This document shows positions 42,395-45,472 of a stretch of DNA of 64,000 nt, in pieces. Numbering within the stretch: position 1 is the stretch's first letter; the number at the start of each line of letters is the position of its first letter. The stretch is from contig NZ_JAOWKZ010000003.1 in NCBI RefSeq assembly GCF_025751495.1, positions 620,001 through 684,000 of the forward strand, in the 5' to 3' direction. The DNA is from Albidovulum litorale (GTDB lineage: Bacteria > Pseudomonadota > Alphaproteobacteria > Rhodobacterales > Rhodobacteraceae). Under the pieces are notes generated by a model that made no database searches, was not told where the DNA came from, and saw only the letters and a list, made by a program, of their open reading frames with translations. Both the position numbers and the translations under genes were made by a program.

Positions 42395-42406
42395 TAACAA
42401 ACCATT

Positions 42407-42440
42407 ACGGGCGCCACGACAGAGGCGCCCGTTTTGTTTT
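42407..42440 (+). terminator. Rho-independent terminator after thrS
   Basis: ACGGGCGCC pairs with GGCGCCCGT over an 8-base loop and is followed by TTTGTTTT. It isolates thrS from the bufferin cluster. Confidence 0.9.
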
Positions 42441-42586
42441 GACGATCGGAAAACCATCCGAAAGTGTTTCAGGACTTCACGCGGTTGTGGCCCCACAGCT
42501 TCGTGAGTGGCCAGAGACCGGGCCCTGCCGCTAGGGTCCGAATTGTCGAAGATACGACGATCTGAACATTAACAAGGGAAGTACCC

Positions 42587-42883
42587 ATGTCTCACTCGAT
42601 GAAGACCCTCGCCGTTGCCGGTTCGCTCGCCGCCGCTCTCTCCGCGCATTTCGTGACGCCTGCCGCCGCACAGGACGACAAGGAAAAGTGCTTCGGCGTT
42701 GCGCTCGCCGGTAAGAACGACTGCGCCGCGGGCCCGGGCACGACCTGCGCCGGCACCTCGAAAGTGGACTACCAGGGCAACGCCTGGACGCTGGTCCCTG
42801 CCGGCACCTGCGAAACCATGGAACTGCCGGACGGCCGCATGGGTTCGCTCGAAGCCCTTGACCGCGACCTGCCGCAGGGCTGA
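42587..42883 (+). CDS. bufA: BufA-type bufferin precursor (DUF2282)
   Basis: 98 residues. DUF2282 family, now known as BufA1 precursors of bufferins: ribosomally made, post-translationally modified periplasmic copper-buffering peptides. A signal peptide (about 1-29, ending P-A-A-A-Q) is followed by a four-cysteine core: [20 protein letters not shown] and A-G-T-C-E-T-M. Family knowledge says the maturase pair converts Cys residues to thiooxazole-type heterocycles. AAGGGAAG precedes the ATG. An intercistronic hairpin separates it from bufB. Metal specificity cannot be read from the sequence. Confidence 0.88.
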
Positions 42884-42892
42884 GATTGATTG

Positions 42893-42921
42893 GGCACCTC
42901 CGGCATATGGCCGGGGGTGCC
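42893..42921 (+). promoter_or_regulatory. Intercistronic hairpin bufA-bufB
   Basis: GGCACCTCCGGC pairs with GCCGGGGGTGCC (one G-U pair) over a 5-base loop, 10 bases after the bufA stop, with no T tract. Likely a 3' stabiliser or partial attenuator giving more precursor than maturase. Confidence 0.6.
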
Positions 42922-42960
42922 GACCGCGACCGCTGACTACGGACGACCAAGGGGGACACC

Positions 42961-43815
42961 ATGCTCGACCAATCCGCCAAGCGTCAGCTGCCACCCCGGC
43001 CCGGCATCGGTTACAAGCCCCAGCACTTTTCGAACATTTTGCAGGATGCAGAACCGGTGAAATGGCTCGAGATCCATGCAGAAAACTACATGGGTGACGG
43101 TGGCCGCCCACTTGCACAGCTTCGTTACCTTGCCGAACGGTTCCCGATCTCGGTCCACGGCGTCGGCCTCTCCATCGGCGGAGAAGGCCCCCTGAACCGC
43201 GATCACCTTGCGCGCCTGAAACATCTCTGTGACTGGGTTGACCCGGCGAGCTTCTCGGAACATCTCGCCTGGTCTACCCATGGCGCGGAGTTCCTGAACG
43301 ATCTGTTGCCGCTACCCTACACAGACGCAACCCTTGAGCGCGTCGCAGACCACATCGCTGAGGTGCAGGATCATGTCGGCCGCCGGATGCTGCTCGAAAA
43401 CCCCTCAGTCTACGTGAACTTCACCGAGACCAATATGGGCGAGATCGAGTTCCTGACCGAGGTCGCCAGACGCACCGGCTGCGGGCTGCTACTCGACGTC
43501 AACAACGTCTTCGTTTCCTGCACAAACCGGCAGACCGATCCTTACGACTATATTGACCGCTTCCCGCATCAACTAGTGGGCGAGATTCATCTTGGCGGCC
43601 ATGACGAGGATACTGACGACATGGGGGCGCCCCTGCTGATCGACGCGCATGGCAGCGAAGTCGTCGATCCGGTCTGGCAGCTCTATGCCCATACGATCGC
43701 AATATCGGGCCCGAAACCCACGCTGATCGAATGGGACAACGACGTTCCCGATTGGCCCGTGCTGGCCGACGAGGCCAGCCGCGCCGCCCGCATTCTCGAC
43801 AAGGTCATCGCATGA
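42961..43815 (+). CDS. bufB: BufB, DUF692 multinuclear-iron maturase
   Basis: 284 residues. DUF692 TIM-barrel enzyme of the MbnB family, which uses a multi-iron centre and oxygen to modify cysteines in its RiPP precursor. Putative metal ligands are in family positions: E-I-H-A-E-N-Y near 40, S-V-H-G-V-G near 62, S-E-H-L-A near 99, L-E-N-P-S near 141, D-V-N-N-V near 179, E-I-H-L-G-G-H near 209 and D-A-H-G near 226. AAGGGGGAC supports the start. Overlaps bufC by ATGA. Confidence 0.92.
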
Positions 43816-44555
43816 GCCAGACTGAGTTTCGTGCGGCTTTGCTGAACCCGGAGCGTCCGGCCCCGGCAGGTCTGGCCGACCCGCAGGGCCGCCCCGCCGG
43901 GCGTCGGTTCGACGTCTACCGCAACAATGTCACGGTCTCGCTGACAGAAGCCCTGCGGCAGGCGTTCCCGGTGATCCGCAAACTGGTGGGGGAAGAGTTC
44001 TTCACGGCCATGGCGCGCGAGCATCTCCGCGCCCATCCGCCGACATCACCCCTGATGATGCATTACGGCCGCGACATGCCGGAATTTCTGGAAAATTTCC
44101 CGCCGGTTCAGCACCTTGGCTACCTGCCCGATATCGCCCGGCTGGAGCTTGCCCTGCGCGAAAGCTATCACGCGGCGGATGCCACATCCGTGTCCGCAGA
44201 GGCCCTGCAGGCATTATCCCCGGATACGCTCATGGCGTCGCGCCCCACGCTCGCCCCGTCGCTCCGCCTCATCCGCTCGCGCTGGCCGATCCACGCGATC
44301 TGGTCGGCAAACATGCGTGGCACCGAAGCGCCGAAATCCGCCGTGGCCGAGGACGTGCTGATCGCACGACCGGACTATGACCCCGAACCGCATCGCCTGC
44401 CCGACGGCGCCGCCCCCTTCATCGCCGCGCTGATGCAGGGCGCGGCCGTGGCCGAAGCGCTTGAGGCGGGACCGGAATTCGACCTGACCGCGACGCTGGG
44501 CCTATTGCTCGCGACCCGCGCCATCACCGCCGTCAACCCCGGAGACCAGACGTGA
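43812..44555 (+). CDS. bufC: BufC, DUF2063-type maturase partner
   Basis: 247 residues. N-terminal DUF2063 domain (F-R-A-A-L-L-N, then R-F-D-V-Y-R-N-N-V near 38, [10 protein letters not shown] near 55), followed by a C-terminal domain with P-D-Y-D-P and L-P-D-G-A-A. In methanobactin and bufferin clusters this protein complexes with the DUF692 enzyme and presents the precursor leader. Often annotated as DNA-binding, which is not supported by context here. Translationally coupled at both ends (ATGA with bufB, GTGA with doxX). Confidence 0.9.
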
Positions 44556-45091
44556 TCGCCCTTTATGACCGCTTTGCCAACGGCCTGTCGCGCCTCGCCC
44601 CCGTCACCCTGCCGACGCTCGCCCGGCTGACCTTTGCCGGCGTTCTCCTGATCTATTTCTGGAACTCCGCCCGCACCAAGTTCGGCGAGGGCTTTGCCGG
44701 GCTCTTCACCCCGTCCGACGGGGCCTATTACCAGATCTTCCCCAAGGCGATCGAAGCGGCGGGTTACGACTTCTCGCAGCTGACCACGTTCCATTGGGCC
44801 GTGGTGATGGCGGGAACCTGGGCCGAGGTTCTGCTGCCGCTCTGCATCATCATCGGGCTTTTCACCCGGTTTGCGGCTATCGGCATGATCGGCTTCGTCA
44901 TCGTGCAAAGCCTGACGGACGTCCATGGTCATGGTGTCGGCGGCGATGATCTCGGTCGCTGGTTCGACGCGGCGTCCGGGGCGCTCATCCTCGATCAGCG
45001 GGCGCTCTGGATCACGCTGCTCATGACCCTCGTGCTGATGGGAGCGGGCCCGCTGTCTGTGGACCGGATTCTGGCCGGCAGACGATCCTGA
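44552..45091 (+). CDS. DoxX-family membrane protein of the bufferin cluster
   Basis: 179 residues with four transmembrane helices (about 25-42, 74-95, 100-120, 145-168). DoxX proteins regularly close DUF2282-DUF692-DUF2063 operons; a role in electron transfer or respiratory-linked oxygen supply has been proposed but is unproven. A His-rich loop (T-D-V-H-G-H-G-V-G-G) could bind metal. Starts with GTG overlapping the bufC stop. Confidence 0.87.
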   Translation: MIALYDRFANGLSRLAPVTLPTLARLTFAGVLLIYFWNSARTKFGEGFAGLFTPSDGAYYQIFPKAIEAAGYDFSQLTTFHWAVVMAGTWAEVLLPLCIIIGLFTRFAAIGMIGFVIVQSLTDVHGHGVGGDDLGRWFDAASGALILDQRALWITLLMTLVLMGAGPLSVDRILAGRRS

Positions 45092-45265: not shown

Positions 45266-45472
45266 ATGGCCACTGGCACCGTGAAATGGTTCAACACCAC
45301 CAAGGGCTTCGGCTTCATCGCGCCGGACGATGGCGGCAAGGATGTGTTTGTGCACATTTCCGCCGTCGAACGCGCCGGTCTGAAGACGCTCGCCGACAAT
45401 CAGAAAGTATCCTACGAGATGCAGTCGGGCCGCGATGGCCGGTCTTCGGCTGGCGATCTCAAACTGCTCTGA
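45266..45472 (+). CDS. cspA: Cold-shock domain protein (CspA family)
   Basis: 68 residues, single OB-fold with both RNA-binding motifs, K-G-F-G-F-I (RNP1) and V-F-V-H-I-S (RNP2). Cytoplasmic RNA chaperone. GGAGGAG precedes the ATG. The 174-base leader is long, as usual for csp genes with a structured 5' UTR. A strong bidirectional terminator follows. Confidence 0.95.

Follow-up and report, generated by a model that had tools for sequence, protein, structure and literature searches.

Four open reading frames on the plus strand, in the order bufA-bufB-bufC-doxX, occupy positions 42587-45091 of the 64,000-nucleotide stretch of the Albidovulum litorale genome analysed here (contig NZ_JAOWKZ010000003.1; referred to as the window, in which coordinates are given unless stated otherwise). 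As judged from the sequence, they were confirmed as a complete operon of the Buf1 type of bufferins, a known and common kind. We propose that its expression is controlled by CenR, the regulator of the envelope two-component system CenKR.

The operon and its products

The first gene, bufA (42587-42883, 98 amino acids), encodes the bufferin precursor of the DUF2282 family (PF10048, 91.7 bits, cut-off 22.4), bufB (42961-43815, 284 amino acids) a multinuclear non-haem iron oxidative enzyme (MNIO; PF05114, MbnB_TglH_ChrH, 349.6 bits, cut-off 25), bufC (43812-44555, 247 amino acids) a type-1 partner protein with a DUF2063 domain (PF09836, 100.4 bits, cut-off 27.2), and doxX (44552-45091, 179 amino acids, GTG start) a DoxX-family membrane protein (PF07681, 25.2 bits, cut-off 23.6). 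Pfam matches were judged by the gathering cut-offs and NCBIfam models by their own cut-offs. The start of bufC was set at 43812; its listed open frame begins further upstream. bufB and bufC overlap by ATGA (43812-43815), bufC and doxX by GTGA (44552-44555), and a gap of 77 bases without overlap separates bufA from bufB. A preliminary description of this DNA, made without database searches, had placed a complete bufferin cluster here and on this strand, consisting of a DUF2282 precursor with four cysteines, a DUF692/MNIO enzyme, a DUF2063 protein and a DoxX gene, with ATGA and GTGA overlaps among the last three genes. All of this was borne out by the four Pfam matches, the coordinates, the cysteine count, the BufB equivalog model and the predicted fold of BufC.

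Of the 22 genus genomes, 19 contain DUF2282, and across the family it is present in 140 of 198 (126 of the 174 good ones), so that the cluster as such is ordinary; the window's genome holds one DUF2282 and one MNIO. Among 139 fetched loci of the family, matches to both bufB and bufC accompany bufA in 136 and a doxX match does so in 121, which makes the arrangement more than chance, and in 87 a thrS match ends less than 700 bases upstream of bufA. Named relatives with the cluster include Defluviimonas, Ruegeria, Roseovarius, Yoonia and Sulfitobacter. Downstream of doxX lies a cold-shock protein gene (45266-45472) and, on the opposite strand from 45520, a gene read by eye as ArsC/Spx-like; matches of both kinds lie near bufABC-doxX in many of 41 relatives' loci, in variable order.

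BufB reaches 376.1 bits with the NCBIfam equivalog MNIO_BufB (NF050167, cut-off 310) and stays below the cut-offs for HvfB (NF003818, 237.9 vs 360 bits) and MbnB (TIGR04159, 43.5 vs 325 bits); the ApyH and ChrH models also match below their cut-offs. Its sequence matches in the PDB are 3bww, the DUF692 chain of 8hci and MbnB entries. Asp249 has been described as the proposed catalytic base of FonB (PMC12668002), and D259 of BufB, invariant in 8 of 8 BufB sequences, appears to take its position, judged by the motif in the 3bww alignment. Plasmids carry MNIO relatives of BufB as well: of 355 records, 73 bear the label Escherichia, 18 Klebsiella and 8 Salmonella. For BufC, an AlphaFold2 model calculated from an alignment of the window protein with 70 of 130 full-length relatives has a mean pLDDT of 95.9. 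When it was compared with the PDB by Foldseek, the only matches with E < 0.001 were TglI in the TglHI complex (8hci, 8hi7) and NGO1945 (3dee), at E values of 1e-5 to 5e-5 and query TM-scores of 0.55-0.59; both are described as MNIO partner proteins (PMC12452194). BufC is thus modelled as a type-1 partner in which DUF2063 is joined by an RRE-like domain, the latter recognised by fold and not by sequence. The doxX product falls below the cut-off of the HvfX family (36.7 vs 80 bits).

Read by eye, BufA begins with what looks like a typical Sec signal peptide, with A28 as its last residue. The protein contains exactly four cysteines, C35, C46, C54 and C75. The preliminary description had seen the core of the precursor in C-F-G-V ... 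C-E-T-M; the four cysteines stand, but the core as named does not, since the central cysteines of Buf1 are the modified ones and the first and last form a disulfide, according to a figure legend in PMC12452194. By the literature, modification would here concern C46 (KNDCAAG) and C54 (GTTCAGT), with the outer C35 and C75 as the disulfide. Of 136 family BufA proteins whose start could be read, 135 keep all four cysteines, as recognised by a pattern in 125 and by eye in the other 10. The lone exception is L202, from family genome G150, where bufA is matched at 1929-2195 in the oriented locus. It has lost both central cysteines and kept the outer two; it is a solo DUF2282 gene, and no bufB, bufC or doxX match was found within the fetched downstream DNA. 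The joint lack of bufBC and of the central cysteines fits the latter being the modified residues.

Captophorins (fontiphorin, oxazolin, gonophorin) are of the same kind in that an MNIO and a type-1 partner with RRE act on a Cys-rich precursor, and those tested carry 5-thiooxazole (PMC12668002). Their precursors contain EGKCG repeats, whereas BufA belongs to the DUF2282 group and a check of its sequence revealed no such repeats. This also distinguishes the operon from the oxazolin/HvfABC cluster, of which BufB fails the HvfB cut-off; from the methanobactin cluster it is set apart by the score with MbnB.

The region upstream of bufA and sigmaF-NrsF

A conserved block precedes bufA in 18 of 19 genus loci (17 aligned rows and L003); the exception, L019, is the same locus as L093 and carries sigF. 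The core of the block consists of two tandem palindromes resembling TCACG-N4-CGTGA, followed by a promoter-like pair, TGGNNN-N18-TAGGNT, that was read by eye. In the window the palindromes are represented by TCACGCGGTTGTGG (box 1, 42477-42490, plus strand) and CCACAGCTTCGTGA (box 2, 42493-42506, plus strand), each with two mismatches. By a matrix of 31 CenR sites, box 1 scores 10.5 bits and takes rank 12 among all window positions on both strands; box 2 scores 9.9 bits on the minus strand (rank 17) and 5.1 bits on the plus strand. Box 2 ends one base before the -35 element of the putative plus-strand promoter at 42508-42537, which was read from the genus alignment and would comprise TGGCCA (42508-42513), an 18-base spacer and TAGGGT (42532-42537). 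A sigma-70 scan of the region found 0 sites, so the proposed promoter is not among its matches. A sequence model of the block, termed R1 and built from 17 rows (leaving out L019 as well as L003, which had a misplaced anchor and later scored 39.9 bits), was used to scan the genome for a second good site, and none was found; the next match, at 17 bits, lies inside a coding frame. From its HEAVGHG motif, we take this frame to be tldD.

Several smaller features flank the boxes on the same strand. The first conserved upstream block is a GTTTCA element (42466-42471), found as GTT[T/A]CA in 15 of 17 aligned genus rows. A short inverted repeat, GTCG-N6-CGAC (42545-42558), whose spacing varies between relatives in the genus alignment, would lie in the presumed 5' leader. 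A terminator-like hairpin at 42407-42432, found by pattern scan, would part the operon from the upstream gene; as five such sites were found in the region and 3.4 are expected, its position behind thrS is the main argument for a terminator. A GC-rich hairpin of 12 bp without a T run is predicted between bufA and bufB (42893-42921). Counterparts of about 8-13 bp, some of them bulged, are predicted in 19 of 19 genus loci, with z < -2 in only 11 of these, and the element may raise the amount of precursor over that of the enzymes.

Some Buf1 clusters are tied to sigmaF and the anti-sigma factor NrsF (PMC12452194, PMC3511200), and sigmaF is reported to mediate a response of the Caulobacter bufferin operons to chromate and cadmium (PMC3511200). 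The Buf1 cluster of Caulobacter vibrioides/crescentus (CC3254-CC3257) contains DUF2282, DUF692/MNIO, DUF2063 and DoxX, the four domains found here, in identical order, but is described as being under sigmaF-NrsF control from a promoter of the GTAACC-N16-CGAA type (PMC3511200), whereas no such promoter was seen in the window, where CenR-like boxes are found. NrsF (PF06532) has no match in the window's genome, which is 99.99% complete; Caulobacter was matched among 14 control genomes. Across the family, 29 of 198 genomes have NrsF at E 0.001, 28 of them over the cut-off, and among the 140 genomes with a bufferin 23 have it.

For counts upstream of bufA, 136 of the 139 family loci were used (in L124, L193 and one thrS-linked locus no start was read) and classed as thrS-linked (86), sigF-linked (14) or other (36); L157, L192 and L197 stand outside the sigF-linked class in that sigF is not divergent upstream of bufA. 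GTAAC-N14-18-CGW, a pattern loosened after some loci had been seen, occurs in 13 of 14 sigF-linked, 6 of 86 thrS-linked and 2 of 36 other regions (shuffle means 0.1, 1.5 and 0.5; maxima 6 for thrS-linked and 2 for other; Fisher p 6e-12 for the difference between classes). The tighter GTAAC[CG]-N15-17-CGA is found in 6 of 14, 1 of 86 and 2 of 36, respectively. GTAAC is absent from window positions 42400-42586, as read by eye. It is the comparison of classes that is informative here; a scan of the window for GTAACC-N16-CGAA with up to three mismatches was not, with 394 matches and 378 expected. On a BufB tree of 135 rows with many weak branches, the sigF label needs 6 changes, and shuffles need 13.5. 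Only one further row of this tree belongs to the genus, L093, in which nrsF and sigF lie between thrS and bufA.

TCACG-N4-CGTGA boxes and CenR

The pattern TCACG-N4-CGTGA was drawn from the family upstream regions before it was counted in them. Of 136 bufA upstream regions, 83 contain it with at most one mismatch (60 of 86 thrS-linked, 11 of 36 other and 12 of 14 sigF-linked) and 119 with at most two, compared with about 1 and 11 in shuffles (5 per set). Control regions, taken from the same loci upstream of csp, thrS, arsC and bufB, contain it, at one mismatch or fewer, in 2 of 230 cases (p 8e-43). It is found in 0 of 13 regions upstream of nrsF, and in 12 of 17 upstream of sigF, which is the same divergent region as that of bufA. 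The strong excess is confined to the 4-base spacer, and with spacers of 5, 6 or 7 the counts come close to those expected by chance. In the named relatives, of whose 80 loci 8 were dropped as bufA was unreadable and some of which repeat genomes of the other sets, 48 of 72 have the box with one mismatch at most and 65 with two. For 11 of the 14 sigF-linked loci, GTAA follows 5 or 6 bases after the end of the box.

Exact copies of TCACG-N4-CGTGA number 68 in the 22 genus genomes, and the backward control yields 15. The start of a gene whose N-terminus resembles a signal peptide follows 10-260 bases downstream in 31 of the 63 N4 sites read, in 0 of 22 N5 sites read and in 12 of 342 offsets (p 2e-19 for N4 sites against offsets); the rule for signal peptides was devised for this analysis, and among the 31 hits at least L220 and L224, both short-chain-dehydrogenase-like, look false. 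Names given by eye to the recurrent genes behind exact boxes (L207-L269) are secreted EF-hand, AhpD-like, 'SFFVTS' and repeat proteins, and single cases are a fasciclin-like protein and an L,D-transpeptidase-like lipoprotein. These genes form a candidate CenR-type regulon of the genus. In L211, an exact box, TCACGAATTCGTGA (1501-1514 of the locus), followed by TGATCC, precedes the fasciclin-like secreted gene, which by eye lies just downstream of a pair encoding an extracytoplasmic-function (ECF) sigma factor and a ChrR-like protein. This neighbourhood led to an RpoE-ChrR type promoter being considered for bufA; it was not adopted, because the -35 element of bufA is TGGCCA. ChvI was likewise dropped as a candidate regulator, its motif being published as TTGC-N3-GCAA (PMC9731502).

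The boxes resemble published sites of CenR in Rhodobacter sphaeroides. These have a 15-base form, many of them T[C/G]ACG-N4-YGTGA, and 28 of 31 are described as lying directly before the -35 element (PMC9275681). In Table 1 of the same source, ACACGAGCGCGTGAG, the site of cenR itself, as well as TCACCTCCTCGTGAG and TGACGCGGGCGTGAA share the form of the box, and the targets are mostly envelope or secreted proteins (PMC9275681). That table names no bufferin gene and DUF2282 is absent from the main text; among the literature matches listed, no earlier statement links CenR or CenK to bufferins or MNIO. With the 31-site matrix, 97 of 136 bufA upstream regions reach at least 9 bits (68 of 86 thrS-linked, 17 of 36 other and 12 of 14 sigF-linked); the same score is reached by 1 of the 136 coding controls and by 1-4% of shuffles. 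Of the 15 loci in the window's genome that match PF00486, only L298 has boxes with a single mismatch, two of them, and one matches the cenR site of R. sphaeroides exactly over 14 bases. The protein encoded there is of the OmpR type, and its D11, D12, D51 and D56 occupy the published positions of these residues in CenR (RSP_0847). By these residues and its own box, L298 is a candidate CenR-like regulator.

Proposed mechanism, alternatives and implications

Taken together, the locus is best explained as a Buf1 bufferin operon with a copper-binding product, the expression of which we propose to be under CenR; we give this reading as a whole a probability of roughly 0.8. In detail, BufA would be synthesised with a Sec signal peptide, and in the cytoplasm the BufB-BufC pair would oxidise the central C46 and C54 to 5-thiooxazoles. 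The modified peptide would be exported by Sec and fold with a C35-C75 disulfide, and in the periplasm its thiooxazole groups would bind surplus copper. Chemistry, export and copper binding are transferred here from papers on relatives. DoxX would act as a membrane accessory. Phosphorylated CenR, bound at the two tandem boxes beside the -35 element, would switch expression on, and the bufferin would thereby belong to an envelope-maintenance regulon and not to the sigmaF metal regulon. That CenR activates the operon we regard as rather probable. We propose an envelope regulator, rather than the metal-stress switch known from Caulobacter, because the genome is without NrsF and the operon carries CenR-like boxes. 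The preliminary description had left open which metal induces the cluster; the metal induction that this presumes is put in doubt by the same two observations.

Several points weigh against this interpretation. The window's own boxes, with two mismatches each and ranks of 12 and 17 in 64 kb, would not have been picked out without the relatives, so that the case for CenR rests on conservation. Among the relatives, 53 of 136 are without a box at one mismatch and 17 of 136 at two. Spacers of 2, 3 and 8 show a modest excess, which reaches no more than 6 of 86 when one mismatch is allowed and as many as 33 of 86 when two are, and which perhaps stems from the tandem arrangement. In the genus, TCACG-N5-CGTGA is even more frequent than the N4 form, with 177 copies and 18 for the backward control; the count alone is thus no argument, and the place of the sites relative to genes is. 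On the side of CenR, some further sites of Table 1 fit the box form poorly, the published motif, TGA-N8-TGA, is called a direct repeat, and no recognisable site is given for 28 of 59 candidate CenR units (PMC9275681). As to the genes, the sequence of BufC found no relevant match in the PDB, and DoxX only just exceeds its Pfam cut-off.

The same operon could instead answer to a dedicated metal or thiol sensor encoded elsewhere, to which the palindromic boxes would belong, merely resembling CenR sites. The sigmaF-dependent response of the Caulobacter operons to chromate and cadmium (PMC3511200) speaks for such a sensor, as does the near-perfect palindrome of the box, set against the direct repeat described for CenR (PMC9275681). 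However, among 15 OmpR-type genes, close boxes are found only at the one for the CenR-like protein, where 14 bases coincide with the cenR site; exact boxes in the genus precede signal-peptide-like genes far more often than offsets do (31/63 vs 12/342), which fits an envelope regulon; and the 63 exact sites are not accompanied by any one family of regulators, two LysR-like genes, one Lrp-like and one response-regulator-like gene having been seen there by eye. We therefore consider a dedicated sensor unlikely, while giving it more weight than the remaining alternatives. That a sigmaF-type ECF factor still drives the operon from another locus, without NrsF, is improbable: the loose sigmaF pattern in 13 of 14 loci with sigF next to bufA and the nature of L093 as a sigF locus are in its favour, but the genome has no NrsF, the pattern drops to 6 of 86 and 2 of 36 in the other two classes, within the shuffle maxima, and GTAAC is missing from 42400-42586. 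Just as improbable is a product with another MNIO modification, such as the oxazolone-thioamide of methanobactin, or one meant for another metal. MNIO enzymes are reported to catalyse several reactions, oxazolin was at first described as carrying oxazolone-thioamide, and MerC-Buf fusions point to metals other than copper (PMC12452194, PMC12668002). Yet BufB lies above the bufferin cut-off and far below that of MbnB, and the MNIO and type-1-partner cases characterised so far are all stated to install 5-thiooxazole (PMC12668002).

The cluster itself is one more member of a very large known family, and the analysis is useful for what it predicts about regulation. In Caulobacter, sigmaF is known to control bufferins, yet 117 of the 140 bufferin genomes in this family are without NrsF at E 0.001. 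On balance we lean slightly towards the view that, in the Rhodobacteraceae-like family, most bufferin operons left or never had sigmaF-NrsF and are activated by CenKR via TCACG-N4-CGTGA, copper buffering being part of an envelope programme that responds to the state of the envelope and not to metal as such. In the lineages that keep sigmaF, the box lies 5-6 bases before the sigmaF -35 element in most cases, and both inputs may meet on one promoter. If CenR drives bufferins, periplasmic copper buffering would be tied to envelope upkeep, and the relevant measurements would be those of envelope stress and growth, not of metals alone. A copper-buffering peptide would then be a standing part of envelope maintenance, beside the secreted EF-hand, AhpD-like, fasciclin-like and other exported proteins.

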